From positions 1-24,617 of the IMG/VR virus record IMGVR_UViG_3300036785_000357: a stretch of 24,617 bases of DNA; one strand, given 5' to 3'. This DNA comes from a virus. The translations under genes were made by a program, and so were the position numbers. Within the stretch, counting starts at the first letter, position 1. Every line of letters begins with the position of its first letter. Positions 10,107-21,809 of this stretch are shown here, one piece after another. Below the pieces are notes generated by a model. The model did no database searches, was not told where the DNA came from, and saw only the letters and a list, made by a program, of their open reading frames with translations.

Positions 10107-10340
10107 TCACTCCTGCTCTGCTGCCTTCAGCATTATTGCAAGTCGCCGCAACGCAATATCGTAATACACAGCGCGCTGCTCAGAAGGCACGTTAGCGATG
10201 CAAAACCCAACGACAAGCAGGCACGCATCTAACGCCTCTGAGATAAGGTGACCATGCAGGAGGCGAGCAAACTGCTCCGCCAGCTTTCTCGCTTCCTTGC
10301 TCGGAGGATCTGGCTTACCAATATTCTTGACCGTGCTCAT
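10107..10340 (-). CDS. Small helical hypothetical protein
   Basis: 77 residues from the ATG at 10340, chosen for the strong GGAGGTG upstream and the ATGA overlap with the preceding stop. It begins MSTVKNIGKPDPPSKEARKL and continues as largely helical sequence (LAEQFARLLHGHLISEALDACLLVVGFCIANV). A moderately hydrophobic helix around LDACLLVVGFCIA may be buried rather than membrane-spanning. No family recognised. Confidence 0.65.
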   Translation of the reverse strand: MSTVKNIGKPDPPSKEARKLAEQFARLLHGHLISEALDACLLVVGFCIANVPSEQRAVYYDIALRRLAIMLKAAEQE

Positions 10341-10582
10341 CGCTTCACCTCCGGACGGAACCTCTTCGCGATGTCGCACAACGCAGCACTATCGCGCAGT
10401 TGCTGCATGAGCTCGGCACTGCTCTCGACAACCGTAGCCTCCAGCAGCCCGAGCCGCCTCTCGATACGAACCTTGCGCGCTTCCAGCTTGTCGAGCTGGT
10501 TGATTGCGCGCTTGAGCCGGGTGCGCCAGCGCTTGATGCTGGCACACACCTTGTCGTAGTCGTTGATGCTGGTGCGGGTCAT
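10337..10582 (-). CDS. Small coiled-coil protein, first gene of unit A
   Basis: 81 residues from the ATG at 10582 (MTRTSINDYDKVCASIKRW), chosen because GGAG sits 8 nt upstream within the leader box shared with two other operons. The open frame upstream to 10618 would run through the promoter and is rejected. The body is a long charged helix (RLKRAINQLDKLEARKVRIE...) with heptad-like spacing. As the first gene of a regulated unit it is expected to be expressed with the helicase and recombination operons. Function unknown. Confidence 0.7.
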   Translation of the reverse strand: MTRTSINDYDKVCASIKRWRTRLKRAINQLDKLEARKVRIERRLGLLEATVVESSAELMQQLRDSAALCDIAKRFRPEVKR

Positions 10583-10589
10583 GTTGGTT

Positions 10590-10637
10590 CTCCGTGGTTG
10601 AGAACCCTTATCTGTCATATTTTATGGAGAGCGTCAA
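10590..10637 (-). promoter_or_regulatory. Promoter/operator/leader A, before the 10582 gene
   Basis: Reading leftward: TTGACG (10637-10632), a 4-bp spacer, the imperfect palindrome CCATA-AAA-TATGA (10627-10615), 13 bp, then the leader box TCAACCACGGAG (10601-10590), whose GGAG is the Shine-Dalgarno. The -10 is unclear; GATAAG is the nearest candidate, 19 bp from TTGACG. The same order occurs at sites B (12900-12946) and C (18949-19000). Confidence 0.7.
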
Positions 10638-10676
10638 GCGCCAGCGCGGAGGTTCCCGGATACCTATGAAAATGAT

Positions 10677-10714
10677 GGGGCGGCAGGTCAACAACCACGG
10701 AAACCTGCCGCCCC
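10677..10714 (-). terminator. Strong terminator whose loop is antisense to the shared leader box
   Basis: GGGGCGGCAGGT (10714-10703 in minus-strand order) pairs perfectly over 12 bp with ACCTGCCGCCCC (10688-10677). ATCATTTTCAT follows, a modest U-tract. It lies about 64 nt after the stop at 10779 and before promoter A, so it ends the helicase operon. The 14-nt loop, TTCCGTGGTTGTTG in the RNA sense, contains TCCGTGGTTG. This is the exact reverse complement of CAACCACGGA from the leader box of sites A, B and C, and a G-U pair extends the match. Confidence 0.8.
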
Positions 10715-10778
10715 GATGCCGGCCGCGGTTCTGGGCGGCGGCGATAACCCTCACGGCCCTGGGAGGCGCGGGCGAGGG

Positions 10779-10979
10779 CTATTTCTTGCGCATGCCAACC
10801 GTGGCGCCGTAGGTCGGGAGCGGCTTGCCGCCCCTGACGTACCGCGGGAGCTTGCCGGGCTGATCCTCGCCGGTCATCTTGTCGGCCACGCCCTTGCTGA
10901 TCCCGGTCTTGGCCCGCACCGCGGGATCCTTCTGCGCCGCATAGAACAGGCCGCGCTGCTTCTGGCTGGTAAATGGCAT
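10779..10979 (-). CDS. Small basic phage protein (MPFTSQKQRGLFYA type)
   Basis: 66 residues. The N-terminus MPFTSQKQRGLFYAAQKDP follows a pattern common among short phage proteins ('MPFxSxxQRxxxxA...'). The rest is basic (ISKGVADKMTGEDQPGKLP, GGKPLPTYGATVGMRKK). These small proteins have no established role that I can name. It is the last gene of the helicase operon, 3 nt after the previous stop, and the terminator at 10677-10714 follows. Confidence 0.7.
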   Translation of the reverse strand: MPFTSQKQRGLFYAAQKDPAVRAKTGISKGVADKMTGEDQPGKLPRYVRGGKPLPTYGATVGMRKK

Positions 10980-10982
10980 TGC

Positions 10983-11258
10983 TCAGCCTCCATCGCCTTC
11001 CGATCGATCCTCGCCCGCCGGCAGATTGAGCTGCTGGTGCGCAATCCGATACATGCCCAGCTGCTCGGACAGACCCAATTCGCGGAGCCACATTACTGCA
11101 TCCTCGGCACTGATGAAACCGCCTTTCAGCGCCACGCCGATGGTATCGACCTCAAGCAGGTCAGCGCGCAACCTGGCCGAGAGCACGCGCAGCTCGGCCA
11201 GGAGGTAGTCGCGATAACCGTTCGCCTCGGGCTCGGCGAATTGGGGCGACAGCGCCAT
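10983..11258 (-). CDS. Small helical hypothetical protein
   Basis: 91 residues from the ATG at 11258, which overlaps the helicase stop as TGATG. An in-frame GTG one codon earlier (11261) is an equal alternative. Content is helical: YRDYLLAELRVLSARLRADL, IGVALKGGFISAEDAVMWL and LSEQLGMYRIAHQQLNLPA. The stretch GGFISAEDAVMWLRELGL resembles short helical repeats in other rhizobial phage proteins, but no function is known to me. Coupling suggests stoichiometric expression with the helicase. Confidence 0.7.
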   Translation of the reverse strand: MALSPQFAEPEANGYRDYLLAELRVLSARLRADLLEVDTIGVALKGGFISAEDAVMWLRELGLSEQLGMYRIAHQQLNLPAGEDRSEGDGG

Positions 11259-12892
11259 CACCGGTAGTCCGAGTAATCATCGCGGACCGGCAGATAGTCG
11301 TCCGGCTTGGTCTTTGCCGGCCCTGGGGAAGCCACTGGTTGGCGTTCCTGGGTCCAGGCAGGCCTGGGCACTGCCGGGCGCTCGAAACCGTTCCCCTGGG
11401 CGTTCCTGGGCGGCTGCGAGCGTACCCAGGCCTTCGCCTCCTCCCTGACCCAGGTCTGCACCAGACCGCACGGGGCTTCGGGTTCACGGCTGACGCCCAC
11501 CGGCCAGACATCCCAGATCGCCCTGTACTTGTTCGCCGCCCAGCCGTCCTTGTAACCACGGCTGCGCGCGATGTGCAGCAACTGGCAGTAAGTCGCCTGC
11601 TTGCCGAGCATCCGCAACGCATCGATCACCTGGATGCGAGCCTTCTGCTCCTGCAGCTTGCGATCGAGCTCGACGAGCTCGCCATCGGCAAACACCAGCC
11701 GGCCATTGAGCGGCGCCGCCCGGAACCCGCAGTGCGGGCACTCCATGCTGCGCGGGGGAATGAGCGCACCACAGCCCTTGCACACCTTGGGCAGCGGAAT
11801 GTCGGCCTCGCCCTTGGGGCGCTTCTCGGCGCCATCGTCCAGCTTGTCGTGCCGGCCGGCGACGTCGGTCACGAACCCGAGCCGGAAATGCGTGTCGCTG
11901 TGATCCAGGATCAGGCAATGATCCTTGCCATTGGCCGTGCGCAGCCCGCGGCCGATGATCTGGACGAACAGCATCTCGGACTTGGTCGGCCGGGCGAGAA
12001 CGATACACCGCACATCCCAGTCGATCCCGGTGGTCAGCGTGCCGACGTTGCAGACGACCTTGGTCTGACCGCCATGAAACCGGCCCTTGATCGCCAGCCG
12101 ATCGGCATCCTTGGTGTTGCAATCCTGGTAATCGCAAGCCACGCCATTGCGCACGAAGTCTTCCTGCAGCGCCTTGGCGTGGGCGCGATCGACGCCAAAA
12201 CAGAGCGTCGGCCGGCTCTCGCCCTTGCGCAGCCAGGTCTGAACCGTGTCCGCAACCAGCGTGTTGGTGTTCATCAGCTTGGCGAGGTCGCCCTCGTGCC
12301 AGTCGCCGGCCACAGTGCGCACCTGCGAGAGGTCAGGGCGGTAAGGCGCGAACACCTTGAAATCCGACAGAAGCCCCTCGTCGATCAGCTGCTGCGTGGT
12401 CGAGGCCACGATCAGCTTGGTGTAGTACTGGCCAAGCCCGCGGGTCCAAGGCGTCGCCGACAGCCCGATGAAAGGCACGCCGGTCCACTCCGGATCGAGC
12501 ATCCACTCGCCGTAATGCTGGAACCAGACGTGACACTCGTCGAGGATGACCAGCCCGGCCTTGGGTTTCTTGCGGCGTGACAACGTCTGGATCGAGCAGA
12601 CCTGCACCGGCTGGTCCCAGTCGGTCATCTCGTGCTGCGCCTGCATCACGCCGATCTGGTCGATGCCCTCGCGCCGCAGCGCCTGCACGGTCTGGTCCAC
12701 GAGCGATATGGCGGGGACACAGAAGATGACCTGCTCGCCGCGGGCGCGGGCATCCTGGATCAACGCCACTGCCATGAGTGTCTTGCCAGCACCGGTGGGT
12801 GCCTGGACGACGACCCGGCGGTGGCCCTCGGCGAGCGCCGCGTGGAGCTTGTCGAGGGTTTCGACCTGGTGAGCTCTCAGTTCGGTATTCAT
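11258..12892 (-). CDS. SF2 DEAD/DEAH-box helicase with zinc-ribbon tail
   Basis: 544 residues from the ATG at 12892, whose GGAG lies in leader box B. It is an ATP-dependent nucleic-acid translocase of superfamily 2. Motifs in order are Q-motif-like LRAHQVETL (residues 5-13), Walker A APTGAGKT (31-38), DECH (118-121), SAT (145-147), and GRGLRT (motif VI, near 313-319). A CKGCG...CPHCG zinc ribbon follows near residues 368-386. A helical domain (VIDALRMLGKQATYCQLLHIARSRGYKDGWA) and a disordered Pro-rich tail close the protein. This architecture is common in phage replication helicases. It probably drives early replication or recombination, with RecT encoded nearby. The open frame upstream of 12892 crosses the promoter and is not used. 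Confidence 0.9.
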   Translation of the reverse strand: MNTELRAHQVETLDKLHAALAEGHRRVVVQAPTGAGKTLMAVALIQDARARGEQVIFCVPAISLVDQTVQALRREGIDQIGVMQAQHEMTDWDQPVQVCSIQTLSRRKKPKAGLVILDECHVWFQHYGEWMLDPEWTGVPFIGLSATPWTRGLGQYYTKLIVASTTQQLIDEGLLSDFKVFAPYRPDLSQVRTVAGDWHEGDLAKLMNTNTLVADTVQTWLRKGESRPTLCFGVDRAHAKALQEDFVRNGVACDYQDCNTKDADRLAIKGRFHGGQTKVVCNVGTLTTGIDWDVRCIVLARPTKSEMLFVQIIGRGLRTANGKDHCLILDHSDTHFRLGFVTDVAGRHDKLDDGAEKRPKGEADIPLPKVCKGCGALIPPRSMECPHCGFRAAPLNGRLVFADGELVELDRKLQEQKARIQVIDALRMLGKQATYCQLLHIARSRGYKDGWAANKYRAIWDVWPVGVSREPEAPCGLVQTWVREEAKAWVRSQPPRNAQGNGFERPAVPRPAWTQERQPVASPGPAKTKPDDYLPVRDDYSDYR

Positions 12893-12899
12893 TGGATAA

Positions 12900-12946
12900 C
12901 TCCGTGGTTGATGTCGCGTTATCCCATTTTTTATGGAGGTCGTCAA
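12900..12946 (-). promoter_or_regulatory. Promoter/operator/leader B, before the helicase
   Basis: Reading leftward: TTGACG (12946-12941), a 17-bp spacer holding the palindrome-like CCATA-AAA-AATGG (12936-12924), GATAAC (12923-12918) as a good -10, then TCAACCACGGAG (12911-12900). This is the clearest of the three promoters. A plus-strand TTGATG (12908-12913) with TTATGG 17 bp later (12931-12936) could start a divergent transcript into the gene-free region. Confidence 0.75.
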
Positions 12947-13372
12947 TAGGCCCATAGGTTCCCGTTCCGTCTACCCTCCCCTCCCCGCTTGCTTGGAGGA
13001 GGGATCTGCTTCTGCTGCACGGCTCGGTTGCAGAAGCTAGGGGCATGCAACTCCCGTCTTGGTATTACACACCGCCGGATATCGACCGGCCAGGACGCTC
13101 CCCTTGCTGGGCTTGGACCAGCTGTCGGGGGGGTAAACGGAGGCACAAGGCCTCCAGGCTGGGCACCTTGCGGTGATCCCCAACTACAGACGAACTGTAG
13201 CGCTGTGTGCTCCCGCGGCCGCATGAAGCCAACGGGACGGTCGGAATTCGCGACAGTGCCGCGATAAGTCCCCGCCAAGACCATGATCCGGAGAGGGGTG
13301 GGACCGGATGACCCATACGCTCAGGCTCCCTGCTCAATGGGGTTGTCACCCCGGCAGTCTGCCTGTATGTTT

Positions 13373-13492: not shown

Positions 13493-13696
13493 TCAGTGCG
13501 CAGTGTCGCGCAGCCAGCGATCGGGATCGAACCGGGCCGCATACCGGCACTGCCACCGCAGCGGGCCGTAGTGCTCGCGCAGCGCGACGACCTGCACCAC
13601 GGCCGCAGCCTCGCAGCGCTCATAGCTCTGATACTGTCCGGCCTCGAACGGCGGCGCGAGCAAACCCCACATCACCAGGTACCACACAAACATCAT
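13493..13696 (-). CDS. Small membrane or secreted protein ending the early operon
   Basis: 67 residues from the ATG at 13696, which overlaps the GcrA stop as ATGA. MMFVWYLVMWGLLAPPFEAG reads as a hydrophobic signal or anchor, and a soluble part with two cysteines follows (YERCEAAAVVQVVALREHYG, then WQCRYAARFDPDRW). The pattern of hydrophobic start, YxxxxxCEAAA and a later Cys is common among short exported phage and rhizobial proteins of unknown function. The two Cys could form a disulphide outside the cytoplasm. Confidence 0.6.
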   Translation of the reverse strand: MMFVWYLVMWGLLAPPFEAGQYQSYERCEAAAVVQVVALREHYGPLRWQCRYAARFDPDRWLRDTAH

Positions 13697-14202
13697 CGCA
13701 CCCGGCTGATGATGTGATACCGCAGATGGTGATACTCGCAATAGCTCGATCCCTCACACCGGTGCCTTCCGCAATAGCGCGCCAGTTCGTGACCATCCCG
13801 ATCCCGGCCAACGATCGCACGGCAATGGTGATTGCGCAGCGCGATCAGACGCACTGAGCGCTTTGGTGGAAGATCCACATCTGGCGGCACTGGTTTCATC
13901 CTGGTTTCCCCCTCCAGCTTTCTGGCGGCTCTCCTGGCTTCTCTCGCCTCATATTCGCGCTCAGCACGCCGAGCCCGGCGCGCCAGGTATCTGGCTTCCT
14001 GCTCCTCCTTCGAGGCCGCACTGCGTTCCCTGGCCTCGGCCAGGATCGCCTGCGAAACCGAGAGCCCGAGCCGATAGGCGCGCCCGATCACCGCCTGGCG
14101 CGATTTGCCAACGAGCGTGCCGAGCGCATGCGTCGAAAGCGCCGTACGGTAGTGCCTGCGCAGGAGGTCGTCCTGCTCCTGCGTCCATATCACGGGCGAC
14201 AT
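13693..14202 (-). CDS. gcrA-like: GcrA-family transcriptional regulator
   Basis: 169 residues. GcrA is an alphaproteobacterial sigma-70 co-factor that activates promoters carrying CcrM-methylated GANTC sites. The N-terminal DNA-binding part has WTQEQDDLLRRHY and SRQAVIGRAYRLGL (residues 34-47), matching 'TRNAVIGKvHRLGL' of the family. The C-terminal RNA-polymerase-contact domain shows HHCRAIVG (C126), ARYCGR (C143), C148 and SSYCEYHH (C154, H157). The two are joined by a long Arg/Glu/Ala-rich helix (residues about 55-98) in place of the Pro-rich linker of Caulobacter GcrA. The start overlaps the HNH stop as TGATG. The phage may use it to redirect host cell-cycle transcription or its own promoters. 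None of promoters A, B or C contains GANTC. Confidence 0.8.
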   Translation of the reverse strand: MSPVIWTQEQDDLLRRHYRTALSTHALGTLVGKSRQAVIGRAYRLGLSVSQAILAEARERSAASKEEQEARYLARRARRAEREYEAREARRAARKLEGETRMKPVPPDVDLPPKRSVRLIALRNHHCRAIVGRDRDGHELARYCGRHRCEGSSYCEYHHLRYHIISRVR

Positions 14203-15058: not shown

Positions 15059-15513
15059 GCTGGCTCCTTTTCAATGCTGCCTTGCTCCTCGTTGACCTCA
15101 CGCATCAAATCATCCGGATCGATGCCGGTGTGCACCGCGATCGCCTCCTTGCAGCGGTCGACCAGGGCACGAAAGGCATCCTCGTCCATGCGGCCCCAAG
15201 CTATGCTCTTCGGCACCCGGCGTATTCTGCCATCCATCTCGCGCGCGATCTTGTAGTGCCCGATGTCGAGAAACAGTGCCTCGCGCAGCTCGTCCTCATC
15301 GCCCCAGCGATCGGTGCCGCGCACGACCTTGCGCAGCATGGCGAAGAACCAACGGTGAAATTTCGGATTACGCACGCGCCGGCCAGTGATCAGGATCTCG
15401 CGATTGACCGGCAGGCTTTCGAGCCACTCCTGCGCATGAATGTCGACCGGCAGGAGCACCTGCCGACCGTTGATCAGCGCTCGGATGAAGCATTTGCCGT
15501 CGAGGTCAGGCAT
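15055..15513 (-). CDS. DUF1367-like phage protein
   Basis: 152 residues. RNPKFHRWFFAMLRKVV (residues about 48-64) and GRIRRVPKSIAWGRMDEDAF (about 95-115) match the family pattern 'RN..fH++FFALL' and 'h..KSiSFakMde.eF'. Members occur in replication/recombination blocks of temperate phages and have no established biochemical activity. The start overlaps the preceding gene by 8 nt. Confidence 0.6.
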   Translation of the reverse strand: MPDLDGKCFIRALINGRQVLLPVDIHAQEWLESLPVNREILITGRRVRNPKFHRWFFAMLRKVVRGTDRWGDEDELREALFLDIGHYKIAREMDGRIRRVPKSIAWGRMDEDAFRALVDRCKEAIAVHTGIDPDDLMREVNEEQGSIEKEPA

Positions 15514-16120
15514 TGGCTGTCATCGACCGTGGACGCCCACGACTTGCCCGTATGATCCCGCGCCCCTTGCAATAGGGACAGGTCTTGAACGCATGCTCGA
15601 CATTGTCGGAAACCTGCCCGGAATGTACATTATCCTGGACAGATTTGGCATGACGCTGTGCGGTCGAGCGGGCAATGCCTGCCTGGCGTGCAGCCTCGGC
15701 AACCCCGCCCTTGCGGCCGCGACCGCCCTTTGCTTTCGACACCTCACCAGCCGCCGTCGCCCGCGCGCGCCGCAGTTCCTTCAGCTTGCGGCGAAGTTCG
15801 GCATGCTGCTGGCGCGTTAATATTTTATGCTCGTTGTCATCAGATAATTCGGCAATCTGATAATCAATCGGCAGGCCGCCGACGATGGTCGCCTGGATAT
15901 AATCCCAACCCAGCTCACGCGCGGCCCGCAAGCGGGTGGCACCGCAGATGACCTTGAAACTGTCGCTCGTCACCTGACGCACCAGGATGGGATAGTGCTG
16001 GTCATCATCCTTCAGGCTGCGCGCAAGCTGCGTCACCCGTTTGGCAGTCGGCGGAAAGGCGCGCTCGCCAACGTCGATGGACTGCACCAACAATTTAGTC
16101 GTTCTGAAATATTTGAGCAT
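15506..16120 (-). CDS. ParB-like protein with HTH and Cys motif (second of a pair)
   Basis: 204 residues. The N-terminal ParB-like domain carries ICGATRLRAARELGWDYI (residues 58-75), the counterpart of the 'GeRRlrAa' box. Residues about 138-158 (GVAEAARQAGIARSTAQRHA) read as a helix-turn-helix. The C-terminus has a single CPYCKGRG, half of a DnaJ-type zinc motif, so zinc binding would need a partner. ParB-fold proteins bind or cleave DNA and many bind CTP. The start overlaps the preceding stop as TAATG. Confidence 0.75.
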   Translation of the reverse strand: MLKYFRTTKLLVQSIDVGERAFPPTAKRVTQLARSLKDDDQHYPILVRQVTSDSFKVICGATRLRAARELGWDYIQATIVGGLPIDYQIAELSDDNEHKILTRQQHAELRRKLKELRRARATAAGEVSKAKGGRGRKGGVAEAARQAGIARSTAQRHAKSVQDNVHSGQVSDNVEHAFKTCPYCKGRGIIRASRGRPRSMTANA

Positions 16121-16935
16121 TATTCAAGCCCCTTGATCTTGAGCAGATTGATGATGGCCTGAGCATAGATTTTTGCCGTGCCGCTGGATCCTCGCGTCGG
16201 CAGCAACGCGGAAATGGCTGCTTCCAATGCCAGCAGGCCGTGCCTTTTCAGCCGGACGATGTATCTCTTGCTGCTGAGTGTCTCCTCCTTCTTGGTCAGC
16301 ATGATCTCGACCATCACCAGCCCCTTGAACACACGCGCGCTCAAGTGGCGGCCGCTGCCGAGCTCGACGAACACCGGAAACAGCCGCAAGGTCGCGGTTC
16401 GCTGACGCTTGGCCAGCTTGCGGCGGATCTCGGCCAGGCTGTCAAATTGTACGCCAGCGGCAAGCAATCGATCGAGGTAGTCCTGTGCTTCGAGCGCATT
16501 GTCACGCCCCTCGAACAACTCCGACTTGTGCAACTCATGGACACGTAGCTTGTCGCGGTGCTGATTGATCAGGCGAAAAGCTTCCGCCTCCTGCTTGGCA
16601 TCATTGACCTCGTACACCATGCAGGGCATCAACCTGATGTCGCCGCGGGTTTTTGCTGCCGCCAGCCGCGTGCCGCCATCGGCGATGACATGTGACCCAT
16701 CCGGACGCAGAATGACGATCAGCGTTCCGCACGCAATCCAGTTCCAGGCTATTGCGATCTCCAGTGCGCGATTGCTTGCTTCGCGATCGCGCTGATAGTC
16801 GTCCCAGGGGACAGTCAGATCCTTGATGCTCAGCTCCATATACGTCCCGCGCAGCATCTGATCGATTGGATTGAAATCGATGGCCGGCTGTTTGCGGCGG
16901 CGCGGCGCAGGCTCACTCGATGGGATCAGGCTCAT
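16120..16935 (-). CDS. ParB-like nuclease-domain protein (first of a pair)
   Basis: 271 residues from the ATG at 16935, chosen for GAGGAGAG just upstream; the open frame further upstream overlaps recT. MELSIKDLTVPWDDYQRD (residues 33-50) and VIADGGTRLAAAKTRGDI (83-100) form the ParB/sulfiredoxin-like core, with DGGTRLAAAK in place of GERR. RLINQHRDKLRVHELHK follows. The C-terminal half (VFVELGSGRHLSARVFKGLV and a helical tail) is not recognised. It could act in DNA binding or nicking beside RecT. Confidence 0.75.
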   Translation of the reverse strand: MSLIPSSEPAPRRRKQPAIDFNPIDQMLRGTYMELSIKDLTVPWDDYQRDREASNRALEIAIAWNWIACGTLIVILRPDGSHVIADGGTRLAAAKTRGDIRLMPCMVYEVNDAKQEAEAFRLINQHRDKLRVHELHKSELFEGRDNALEAQDYLDRLLAAGVQFDSLAEIRRKLAKRQRTATLRLFPVFVELGSGRHLSARVFKGLVMVEIMLTKKEETLSSKRYIVRLKRHGLLALEAAISALLPTRGSSGTAKIYAQAIINLLKIKGLE

Positions 16936-16949
16936 CTGCTCTCTCCTCG

Positions 16950-17681
16950 TTACCTGATGTCCTCGACCGTGGCCGGCCGCTCGCCCTCCTCCTCCCACAC
17001 CACCGCATCCGGAGCAGGAGGAGGTGGCGGCACGACTATTTTTGTCCTCGCGCCATCCCCTCCACTGCCGCCATTTGTGGGAATAAAATCGGCCATCTCC
17101 TCGGCCGATGCCATGCCGCGCAGGACATCCGGAAAGACATCGCGCAAGGCAAATGCGCGCGCCCGCATCTGCAGCATGCGCATGGGATGCGTGATCCAAG
17201 GCGTCGGCTCGCCCTTGTAGGTACGCTTCCCCCACAGGCCGGCAACCTGGGCGTCCTTGCGTGAGAACGCGCGCGCCACACGGTGACCATCACGCACCAC
17301 GATGCACGTTGCCGTCGGGTTCTCGCCGTCGCGATCGGCAATCTTTTCGGTGATCCGCTCCAGCCGGCCGCTCTTGATGACCACGGCGAGGAGGCCGTCG
17401 CCGTACAACGCCGGCCGCCCGTTGATGAGTGCGATGCTCTGCAGTGCCTGCATTGGCGGCAGACCCACCTCGGCACCGGCCATGATCACGCATGCTATCT
17501 TGGCCATGGTGTCGTAGTCGCGCGGCGCCAATCCAGACGCCAGCAACATGGTGGCCATGCGCTGCACCTCTTCGAGCGTGCCCGGCACGATCGCCACCAC
17601 CGTATTGCCACCGGCCAGGGCCGGATATCTGGGTGCATCGGTGCCGCGAGTGTCGGTATCGGTAATGCCGGCTGTGCTCAT
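16950..17681 (-). CDS. recT: RecT-family single-strand annealing protein
   Basis: 243 residues. RecT anneals complementary single strands in phage recombination. The core is easily recognised: AKIACVIMAGAEVGLPPMQA, LQSIALINGRPALYGDGLLA, and MRMLQMRARAFALRDVFPDV. A disordered Pro-rich C-terminus follows (VVPPPPPAPDAVVW). The start overlaps the preceding gene as ATGA. No RecE or other exonuclease is identifiable nearby, although the upstream 297-residue protein is the usual position for a RecT partner. Confidence 0.92.
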   Translation of the reverse strand: MSTAGITDTDTRGTDAPRYPALAGGNTVVAIVPGTLEEVQRMATMLLASGLAPRDYDTMAKIACVIMAGAEVGLPPMQALQSIALINGRPALYGDGLLAVVIKSGRLERITEKIADRDGENPTATCIVVRDGHRVARAFSRKDAQVAGLWGKRTYKGEPTPWITHPMRMLQMRARAFALRDVFPDVLRGMASAEEMADFIPTNGGSGGDGARTKIVVPPPPPAPDAVVWEEEGERPATVEDIR

Positions 17682-18756: not shown

Positions 18757-18942
18757 TCACCCGATGCGGCCGTAGCGACCCGGAATGAGACCGGCGTCGG
18801 TCTCCAGCTGCTCGATTTCCTCGGTGCTGGTGACCTCGTCCACGCCGTCCTCGAAGATCTTGTGGCAGCACGAGCAGTACCACTGCGCGTCGTGATCATT
18901 GTCGGACCCGCAGCCCGAGCACGTCCAAAAGGCGATTGTCAT
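18757..18942 (-). CDS. Small Cys-rich, zinc-ribbon-like protein, first gene of unit C
   Basis: 61 residues. WTCSGCGSDNDHDAQWYCSC places CxxC at residues 8-11 and a Cys cluster with C26 and H27 (CCHKIF), an arrangement that suits one zinc ion. An acidic C-terminal helix follows. It is translated from leader box C (GGAG about 7 nt upstream) and heads the recombination operon. It may be a regulator or an accessory of DNA metabolism; the role is inferred only from the fold hint and position. Confidence 0.7.
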   Translation of the reverse strand: MTIAFWTCSGCGSDNDHDAQWYCSCCHKIFEDGVDEVTSTEEIEQLETDAGLIPGRYGRIG

Positions 18943-18948
18943 TGGTTT

Positions 18949-19000
18949 CTCCGTGGTTGATCGATACCCTCTCCATATGATATGGGAGGACGAGCGTCAA
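18949..19000 (-). promoter_or_regulatory. Promoter/operator/leader C, divergent with the HTH gene
   Basis: Reading leftward: TTGACG (19000-18995), the perfect palindrome CCATA-TCA-TATGG (18985-18973), 12 bp, then TCAACCACGGAG (18960-18949). TTGACG is 9 bp from the palindrome here, against 4 at A and B; TATGGA at 17 bp is a weak -10. On the plus strand TTGATC (18957-18962) with ATATGG 17 bp later (18980-18985) could drive the HTH gene, so one operator would control both directions. Confidence 0.7.
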
Positions 19001-19524: not shown

Positions 19525-21809
19525 GCGATTGCCTCCTGCGTATCGATGTACGCTTGCACTGCCTGCAGCATCACATCGGCATCGGCGCGCAATTCCGCCT
19601 CCTCGCGGTTGATCGGTCCGTAGTGCTGTCTTAATTTGCGCAGCACGATTGCGCAGCTCTCGCAGGCAAACGCTGGCTCGCTCTTGCACAACCCCTGAAA
19701 TTTTTCGCCCATGCCCGAGCCATAGTTGTCCCAGTCAGAGGAGCCGCACGACACTTCCTCCTCGAACTGAGCCAGGAAACCCTGCAATTCCCCGGCCTCG
19801 AACGCACGCATCAACTCGTCGAATTCGCTCGAACACGTATGCGCGTTGTAGCTGGTCTGGAACAGCCCCGCCTCTGCCGTGTCGCTTGATGTGTTGTCGG
19901 CGCTCTGATCGCGGCCGCAGCAGTGCTGCCCGGAGCTCTCGCGCATGCCAAGCCCCATCAGCAGCGCCCACAGATGCCGCAGCGTGTCGGGGCCGTCACG
20001 AGTATTGTCCATGCCCGCATCGCGGAATTGCGTGTAATACCACTGCAGAACATCCTTCTCGCTGTTGCCCGTGTTGGCCTTGGCCATCTCGACTGCCGGA
20101 GAATAGCCGCCGAGCAGCTGCCGGTAGGTGTTGGCGAAGGCCAGCGCAAAGCCCTTCACGTAACCGTCTGGAGCCTGGCCACGATCATCCCAATTGTAGT
20201 TCGCAATCCTGGAATTGATCGCAATCGTGGAGATTGCATCCACCTGCTCCTCGCTCAATGGCGCCAGCGCACCGCTGACCGGTGGCTCGCCGGTCTCCGC
20301 GAAAATGTAGTCTTGCGAGGCCCAGCCATAGACCGCCACGCCTGCCATGTGATCGTCGCCAAATTTCAACTTGTACCAAGTGCCCGAGCTGCCGACGATC
20401 GTGACCAGATCGCTGTTCTCGGCCCGGCCGATAATCGCAGCCGAGCCGCTGGCAGTCGCTCGAATATTCAGATAGTCGTCAGGCGGGACACCATGCACCT
20501 CGCCCACGACCGGCACCTCTGTCACCGGCGGCTGCTCGGTATCCGGCGGCTGCTCGGTGTCCGGCGGCTGCTCGTCGATCGGCACCCCGGCAAGGGTTTC
20601 GGCAATCGTCCGACAGATGGCCTCGAAATGCTGATTGAGCAGATCAGTATCTGCGCGACTGTCGCAGAACATGGTCTCGATGAGGATGCTTTTGGCCCTT
20701 GTGTTGTTCAGGAAGGCCAGATCCGACCTGTACTTTGGGCCACGGTCAATAAAATGACCAGCCGCCGCAATGTTCACGGACATGCGGTCTGCCAGATCTT
20801 CCTGGGTGACATAGAGCACCTCGACGCCCATTGGCTTGGTGGTCGAGGTGTACGCATTTAAGTGCACCGAGACGTCGTAAGTGTGCGACGGCTGGGCATT
20901 GTGGAAATTGGTTATCGTCGAGAGGTTCTCAGACTGGGAATGGCTCGTGTTATCGTGAAATTTGGTCACCTTGACGTTTTCCGACACCAGCATCTCGGTG
21001 ACGCGATCCACGATCCGCCTGGCCTCATTGACCTCGTCGCAGTACCCCGAGGCCCCTCGCACATACAATCCGTGGCCCGATGAAATGACGATCGAATTTG
21101 CTGTCATGATCGGTTCTCCGGTTTGATACTCCAGCACATCCTCGACCGTAGTATACTCCCCACGCCCCGAGTAGGTCACTCCGACATTGAGCAAATCAGC
21201 GGCCTGCATCGCAACCCGATTTGCCCACCTCCAGCCGGTACCATGTCCGCCCTCGTCGAATGCCACGAACCACAGCGGCAGATCAGGCTTGCCGCAGGCC
21301 CGGCGCAACCCTTCCAGCAAATTGAGCGACTGCGTACTGCGCTCGATGATCACTCCAACCACATGGGGATGCTCAATGTAGCGGCGTGCATTCTCGCGGG
21401 ACAACAGCAGGGGGTTCTTCGCGATGACCTGGAACCCGCAGTTCGCGACCTCGTCCATGACATAGTCGAAATAGTCGTCATAGCTGTCAGGATTGTCGAG
21501 CTCGATCGTGGTGTGACCCTGCGCCCGCCGCAGCGCATATTGCCGGTCGAGATTGCGCCGCCAGCCGGCACCGCGTGGATCGATGCGGCCCTCGCCGTAC
21601 GCACCGGACACGTCGTCGTCCGGCAAATACGGCCCGTAGATCGGTCCCTCCTCGTCGTAGTGCTCGTGAAACAGGTTGCAGTAGGCAATGTTCTCTCCGC
21701 TACCCACACATGGATCATCGTACGGTACCTCGATCACGCGTGAGCCATCCGCCTCGATGCGCTCGAAATCAGCCCCGATCAGATAGCTGAGCGCCCTGTT
21801 CACAGGCAT
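19521..21809 (-). CDS. Multi-domain peptidoglycan hydrolase (TIM-barrel-like + Amidase_3 + SH3 + lysozyme-like)
   Basis: 762 residues. Residues 1 to about 230 look like a glycosidase TIM barrel (HTTIELDNPDSYDDYFDYVM, IEHPHVVGVIIERS, LWFVAFDEGG). Residues about 235-408 are an N-acetylmuramoyl-L-alanine amidase of the Amidase_3 type. Its zinc and catalytic residues are H246 (SSGHG), E262, H316 (SVHLNA) and E378 (IETMFCDS). A PPDTEQ repeat linker (415-431) leads to an SH3-like domain (about 440-505: DDYLNIRATASGSAAIIG, then GTWYKLKF). A Cys-rich lysozyme-like domain follows with E624 in GMRESSG and EAGLFQTSYNAH. It would cleave both peptide-glycan and glycan bonds, either as endolysin or as virion lysin. 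No signal peptide. It starts 4 nt after the previous stop without a clear Shine-Dalgarno, and has a good internal start at 21107. Confidence 0.8.
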   Translation of the reverse strand: MPVNRALSYLIGADFERIEADGSRVIEVPYDDPCVGSGENIAYCNLFHEHYDEEGPIYGPYLPDDDVSGAYGEGRIDPRGAGWRRNLDRQYALRRAQGHTTIELDNPDSYDDYFDYVMDEVANCGFQVIAKNPLLLSRENARRYIEHPHVVGVIIERSTQSLNLLEGLRRACGKPDLPLWFVAFDEGGHGTGWRWANRVAMQAADLLNVGVTYSGRGEYTTVEDVLEYQTGEPIMTANSIVISSGHGLYVRGASGYCDEVNEARRIVDRVTEMLVSENVKVTKFHDNTSHSQSENLSTITNFHNAQPSHTYDVSVHLNAYTSTTKPMGVEVLYVTQEDLADRMSVNIAAAGHFIDRGPKYRSDLAFLNNTRAKSILIETMFCDSRADTDLLNQHFEAICRTIAETLAGVPIDEQPPDTEQPPDTEQPPVTEVPVVGEVHGVPPDDYLNIRATASGSAAIIGRAENSDLVTIVGSSGTWYKLKFGDDHMAGVAVYGWASQDYIFAETGEPPVSGALAPLSEEQVDAISTIAINSRIANYNWDDRGQAPDGYVKGFALAFANTYRQLLGGYSPAVEMAKANTGNSEKDVLQWYYTQFRDAGMDNTRDGPDTLRHLWALLMGLGMRESSGQHCCGRDQSADNTSSDTAEAGLFQTSYNAHTCSSEFDELMRAFEAGELQGFLAQFEEEVSCGSSDWDNYGSGMGEKFQGLCKSEPAFACESCAIVLRKLRQHYGPINREEAELRADADVMLQAVQAYIDTQEAIA
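21105..21120 (-). promoter_or_regulatory. Internal ribosome-binding site and ATG within the lysin gene
   Basis: CGGAGAACCGATC-ATG lies in frame at Met235, exactly between the TIM-barrel and amidase domains. GGAG is 8 nt from the ATG, and GGAGAACC matches the Shine-Dalgarno context of the genes at 10582 (GGAGAACCAAC) and 22080 (GAGAACCAA). Initiation here would make a 528-residue amidase-SH3-lysozyme product from the same gene. Confidence 0.55.

Follow-up and report, generated by a model that had tools for sequence, protein, structure and literature searches.

A terminator-like phage hairpin with a loop antisense to the leader of three operons, and leader-matched antisense elements in other phages

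Some bacterial small RNAs derive from 3′UTRs, the terminator-bearing 3′ fragment of a transcript acting in trans on other mRNAs. The phage hairpin described here would differ in that its seed is the terminator loop itself and its targets include its own operon. Antisense regulation within phages is exemplified by the c4 RNA of P1 and P7, the loops of which block translation by pairing around ribosome-binding sites in genes of the phage itself (PMC5320573, PMC12197685). In mechanism, c4 is the most similar of the known systems, in that it is a phage antisense RNA and its loops cover the regions where ribosomes bind; our loop is likewise complementary to the ribosome-binding region of phage genes. 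But c4 is a three-stem RNA, processed by RNase P, which acts on ant mRNA, whereas here one sequence fits a leader reused by several genes. The Rfam covariance model for C4 antisense RNA gives no match naming C4 at E≤10 in positions 10400-13300 of the sequence analysed. Among host RNAs, alpha-r14/NfeR1 and the cuckoo RNAs of alphaproteobacteria keep an anti-Shine-Dalgarno motif unpaired in hairpins, as the phage elements do; in alpha-r14 RNAs, three hairpins display CCUCCUCCC (PMC10746234). In these host RNAs CCUCCUCCC is ultraconserved, whereas the phage seeds vary together with the leaders and reach beyond the Shine-Dalgarno sequence. The CCUCCUCCC motif is absent from the loop studied here (UUCCGUGGUUGUUG) and from the seeds of R1, a family of elements described below.

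The hairpin and the common leader

The window, by which we mean the whole 24,617-nucleotide stretch of viral DNA analysed, has its longest perfect hairpin at 10677-10714, closing the helicase operon on the minus strand. Re-reading of the letters confirms what the preliminary description reported, namely a perfect 12-bp stem, a 14-nt loop and, within the loop, 10 nt of exact antisense that one G-U pair lengthens to 11 pairs. On the plus strand, GGGGCGGCAGGT (10677-10688) is followed by the loop CAACAACCACGGAA (10689-10702) and by ACCTGCCGCCCC (10703-10714); the minus strand, read from 10714 to 10677, is GGGGCGGCAGGT-TTCCGTGGTTGTTG-ACCTGCCGCCCC, then ATCATTTTCATAG. The minus-strand loop TTCCGTGGTTGTTG (10689-10702) is the putative anti-leader seed. 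Its antisense core (10692-10701), TCCGTGGTTG, is the exact reverse complement of CAACCACGGA. Both the hairpin and this complementarity can be read directly from the sequence.

The leader in question carries a 12-nt box, TCAACCACGGAG, said to stand mismatch-free before the genes starting at 18942, 12892 and 10582. An exact search of the window finds just these three copies, all on the minus strand and each 6-7 nt ahead of an ATG. The copy at 18949-18960 leads a 61-aa gene (18757-18942, minus strand), and that at 12900-12911 leads the DNA helicase gene (11258-12892, minus strand; phrog_16; ResIII/Helicase_C). The third copy (10590-10601) leads the gene at 10337-10582 (minus strand), which lies about 95 nt downstream of the hairpin loop. 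This last copy sits inside a 7-bp hairpin, GGTTCTC/GAGAACC. With a self-folding energy of -10.1 kcal/mol, the 10582 leader must unfold for pairing; the other two leaders are less stable as local hairpins.

TTGACG and a palindrome-like CCATAnnnnATG precede all three leaders, the palindrome being perfect before 18942 and degenerate before 12892 and 10582. The corresponding minus-strand promoter regions are 18973-19000 (TTGACG and the perfect palindrome CCATATCATATGG), 12924-12946 (TTGACG and CCATAAAAAATGG) and 10616-10637 (TTGACG at 10637-10632, CCATAAAATATG at 10627-10616). The phages L091, L093 and L094 have the same promoter arrangement, but with other leaders. As a separate matter, TTGACG with the palindrome CCATATnATATGG, found in the three window promoters and in L091, L093 and L094, looks like a phage operator regulon.

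In all three leaders, the box stands at a fixed distance from the palindromic promoter element. This would be expected if CAACCACGGA were a site for a protein on DNA or RNA, for example a repressor binding just downstream of the three promoters, with the inverted fourth copy, which precedes the third by 101 bp, serving as a looping or decoy site. The box of a viral contig, L299, which lies in sense within a terminator loop, would also be in keeping with a protein site. We nonetheless give this idea very little weight, as it leaves unexplained both the exact placement of the inverted copy in the loop of the window's longest perfect hairpin and the antisense elements of other phages.

The hairpin itself resembles an intrinsic terminator: the stem is strong, the U tract (AUCAUUUUCAU) is modest and confined to the minus strand, and the 14-nt loop falls outside the limit of 8 set in the terminator scan. 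The hairpin has a T-rich flank only in the orientation that would give the antisense loop as RNA. The last gene ahead of it encodes 66 aa (10779-10979, minus strand). No promoter belonging to the hairpin is detectable, the best site scoring 7 points with 47.5% of shuffles equally good; therefore, the RNA would have to derive from the end of the operon transcript. The seed is placed inside the terminator loop, and a separate seed hairpin is absent. A 10-bp duplex within a 14-nt loop is strained, and because the loop is short for such a duplex, a partial kissing contact is likelier than full pairing.

Strength of the loop-leader match

The preliminary description set the probability of a chance match at the order of 5 × 4^-10, which ignores other hairpins and leaders that might equally have been noticed. 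When every hairpin with a stem of at least 9, both orientations and three 10-mers are allowed for, our own arithmetic gives about 2e-4. That the match is unusual is nonetheless upheld by shuffling: among about 230 hairpins with a stem of at least 9 and a loop of 8-20, a loop with at least an 8-mer of the box appears in 0 of 120 dinucleotide-preserving shuffles of the window. A 10-nt match between a loop and any leader is also seen when sequences are reversed as a control (2 in 233 loci), so the remarkable part is the match to a box common to three genes.

The predicted loop-leader duplexes amount to -18.4 to -19.3 kcal/mol. Hybridisation energies had been proposed as a check, and those at the leaders are favourable, but the same loop gives -20.2 and -18.8 kcal/mol with two sites in coding sequence. 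Because these values are comparable or better, energy alone cannot define the targets.

The helicase, terminase and portal proteins of L091, L093 and L094 are about 57-67% identical to those of the window phage. It had been proposed that relatives keeping the leader while losing its complement would speak against regulation; L091, L093 and L094 instead have neither the box TCAACCACGGAG nor the matching loop. Because the pair is missing whole, neither kept nor broken, these three phages are uninformative on direct covariation of loop and leader. Just ahead of a coiled-coil gene they carry a GC hairpin, CCCCGCCCCGG-TATCGCAG or TGTCGCAG-CCGGGGCGGGG, that lacks a U tract and has a loop (TATCGCAG or TGTCGCAG) unrelated to the leaders of those phages.

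These observations bear on another account of the locus, namely that it is an ordinary intrinsic terminator, that its loop resembles the leader by chance or through local reuse of sequence, and that there is no regulation. The hairpin is well sited as a terminator, the nearest relatives have a GC hairpin with an unrelated loop at a comparable position, and a comparison of all hairpin loops with any leader, shared or not, gives no overall antisense excess. Set against this are the failure of all shuffles to reproduce the match and the recurrence of leader-matched antisense elements in other phages. On balance, we consider a plain terminator unlikely, though well worth weighing.

Separately, antisense copies of the CCAAGGGG leaders lie beside a GC hairpin at L091:16000-16070 and L094:19070-19140, and possibly constitute another anti-leader element.

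Leader-matched antisense elements in other phages

Distant helicase relatives carry antisense elements of their own. In L045, L052-54, L055, L063/64 and L067, an RNA element consists of a hairpin presenting GTTTGCTCC(TTT), followed by a terminator. The leader to which it is antisense, AAAGGAGCAA, precedes 8-14 genes in most of the carrier phages. In L053, the genes with this leader include the helicase, an exonuclease VIII-like protein, a DUF2201 protein and an AAA ATPase, a set that fits early DNA-metabolism functions. Alignment of L045, L063, L052 and L055 gives 12 invariant columns, GTTTGCTCCTTT, together with the seed hairpin and the terminator; 10 predicted pairs across the element are changed on both sides, albeit in few sequences (n=4) and with the stem alignment partly uncertain. 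A covariance model, R1, built from these four sequences finds L067 independently (E=1.5e-7). It finds L065 weakly (E=0.14), by the terminator part alone and not by the seed; an upstream hairpin in L065, GCGCGCA-TGTCTGCTTGCTCCGCATC-TGCGCGC, is antisense to that phage's own GGAGCAAGC leaders. The R1 seeds are GUUUGCUCCUUU, and the model has no match in the window at E≤1. Other antisense sequences, each fitting its own leader, occur in L013/L065, L048, L114 and L312/L316. Like the window hairpin, these leader-matched elements are plainly present in the sequence.

Five R1 members have promoter-like sites (TTGNNN-N17-TANNNN) just upstream, with 1-17.5% of shuffles equally good for each. In L312, L316 and L114, T-rich tails past the terminator lie on the antisense-carrying strand. 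The elements of the relatives usually lie 0.4-2.4 kb 3′ of the helicase: the distance downstream is 449-1487 nt in L055, L052, L045 and L013 and about 2.3 kb in L063, compared with about 545 nt in the window.

For the window hairpin, pairing with readthrough RNA in cis is no less possible than pairing in trans. If the window hairpin were a device acting solely in cis, the loop on readthrough RNA from the helicase promoter would pair with the leader about 95 nt downstream, the 10582 gene would be translated only from the transcript of its own promoter, and the other two matches would be a by-product of the common box. The 10582 promoter and leader do follow immediately after the loop and share its strand, and the effective concentration of the loop in cis would presumably be high. 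In the relatives, however, the antisense element is distant from most of the genes it matches, which lie on either strand, and we regard a purely cis-acting device as improbable.

How closely each element fits its own phage can be seen from a matrix in which leaders with a perfect complement of at least 9 nt to each element were counted phage by phage. For the AAAGGAGCAA phages, the seeds match 8-14 genes of the same phage, as well as genes of the other phages in the group. The L048 element (GGAGCACGAC) matches 10 of the phage's 33 genes and the L067 element 1 of 13, while own-gene matches number 2 and 3 for the L013 and L065 elements (GGAGCAAGC), 2 for L114 (AAGGGGAAA), and 3 and 1 for L312 and L316 (AACCACGGAG). 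The matrix is near block-diagonal; off-block counts are mostly 0-2, except for 4 in L048 for R1 seeds. The count for the window is 1, because two of the three genes were given different starts by the simple gene caller. One caveat is that the matrix is descriptive and partly circular, since most of the elements were found through antisense to their own leaders; L065 and L067 are less affected by this.

Several controlled counts address whether such matches recur beyond chance. Antisense copies of leaders common to at least three genes, with opposite-strand leaders excluded, pointed to L045, L048 and L063. A filter for intergenic position and a downstream GC hairpin gave five matches (L114, L052, L053, L048 and L013, those of L052 and L053 being one element), versus none in reversed and none in complemented sequence. 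Own-leader matches near intergenic hairpins were found at 6 loci, against a mean of 0.31 and a maximum of 3 in 200 permutations with the leaders of other loci. Inspected singly, three of the six convince (L013, L045 and, on the minus strand, L048), one is uncertain (L091) and two, L190 and L356, seem spurious; the automatic matches in L190, L356 and the plus strand of L048 resemble repeats or opposite-strand leaders. A second design gave 7 versus 1.2, with a maximum of 6.3 in 300 permutations, and L039 and L051 are among its doubtful matches. For the helicase's own leader alone, with the window masked, 3 loci have at least 10 nt versus 0.98 expected, a slight excess. The case that antisense to a phage's own leader recurs beside terminators across phages thus appears good but not overwhelming.

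Two other tallies proved less useful. An early count of antisense leader copies was swamped by genuine opposite-strand leaders, which were then filtered, and a perfect 6-bp stem around the seed, used as a criterion, was uninformative (9 antisense versus 8 reversed).

Proposed role and related observations

We favor a reading, to which we assign a probability of roughly 0.57, in which the window hairpin both ends the helicase transcript and yields an anti-leader antisense RNA that gives delayed negative feedback on early genes. Transcription of the helicase operon would produce a 3′ fragment ending in the hairpin and exposing UUCCGUGGUUGUUG. The loop would pair with CAACCACGGA(G), which the leaders of three early operons contain, among them that of the helicase operon itself. 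Pairing would cover the Shine-Dalgarno GGAG and lower translation, so that early-gene expression is damped after a delay. We infer accumulation of the RNA, its pairing, the repression and the timing from the arrangement of the elements; early-gene shut-off is proposed because the L053 leader genes fit early DNA metabolism. The preliminary description had likewise suggested a 3′-end-derived antisense RNA acting on three Shine-Dalgarno leaders. Its proposal gains from the comparative evidence and is weakened by the missing promoter and seed hairpin, the strained loop and the self-folding 10582 leader.

The finding is of wider interest than first stated, given that antisense elements matched to a leader are also present in other phages. 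The best explanation of the window element may be that it belongs to a wider, previously uncatalogued phage practice, in which one structured RNA is matched to a reused leader. More specifically, the odds seem to us about even that phages of the helicase lineage, and some others, use one antisense RNA as a genome-wide translational off-switch, with seed and leader changing together and the RNA perhaps transcribed from a promoter of its own, as in R1, or derived from a terminator loop, as in the window. Phages commonly reuse the same leader before many genes, for reasons that are not obvious. If our reading is correct, a matching antisense RNA would make the common leader an address for simultaneous shut-off, providing a compact early-to-late switch that acts on translation. 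Matched seed-leader pairs lend themselves to clear predictions for reporter tests, and seeking antisense copies of a genome's own leaders may be a general route to phage regulatory RNAs.

Wider searches give some idea of the distribution of these sequences. No Rfam family reached the gathering threshold at any of eight loci from relatives. A scan with R1 of a single bacterial order, represented by 150 genomes, gave 10 weak matches, and the alignments inspected cover the terminator only, without the seed; the seed-plus-terminator pattern was found in 0 of 385 genomes, and four cultured phages have no convincing element. Among viral contigs, a search for the box plus promoter gave 4 matches, with related genes absent. 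A looser scan for the box gave more than 119 matches, a total that lacks a control-scan baseline; most are single leaders, and the 16 loci with at least two same-strand copies stand out.

Other sequences of possible interest were encountered along the way. AACCACGGAG occurs 3-5 times in each of L265, L293, L295, L299 and L347, mostly ahead of start codons, in viral contigs with no detected kinship to the window. At L299:2150-2230, the box CAACAACCACGGAG lies in sense within a terminator loop (AAGCCCCTC...GAGGGGCCTTTT), and the same box is present in two L299 leaders. Within the window, positions 13693-14202 encode a GcrA-like cell-cycle regulator (PF07750, E=3.8e-21), and two ParB-like proteins are encoded side by side at 15506-17235; together, these suggest an alphaproteobacterial host. 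Finally, the endolysin gene contains an 18-nt tandem repeat, CGGCTGCTCGGT, at 20511-20574, and a perfect 10-bp hairpin, AAACCCCTAC-TTCTGTG-GTAGGGGTTT, is found at 483-509.
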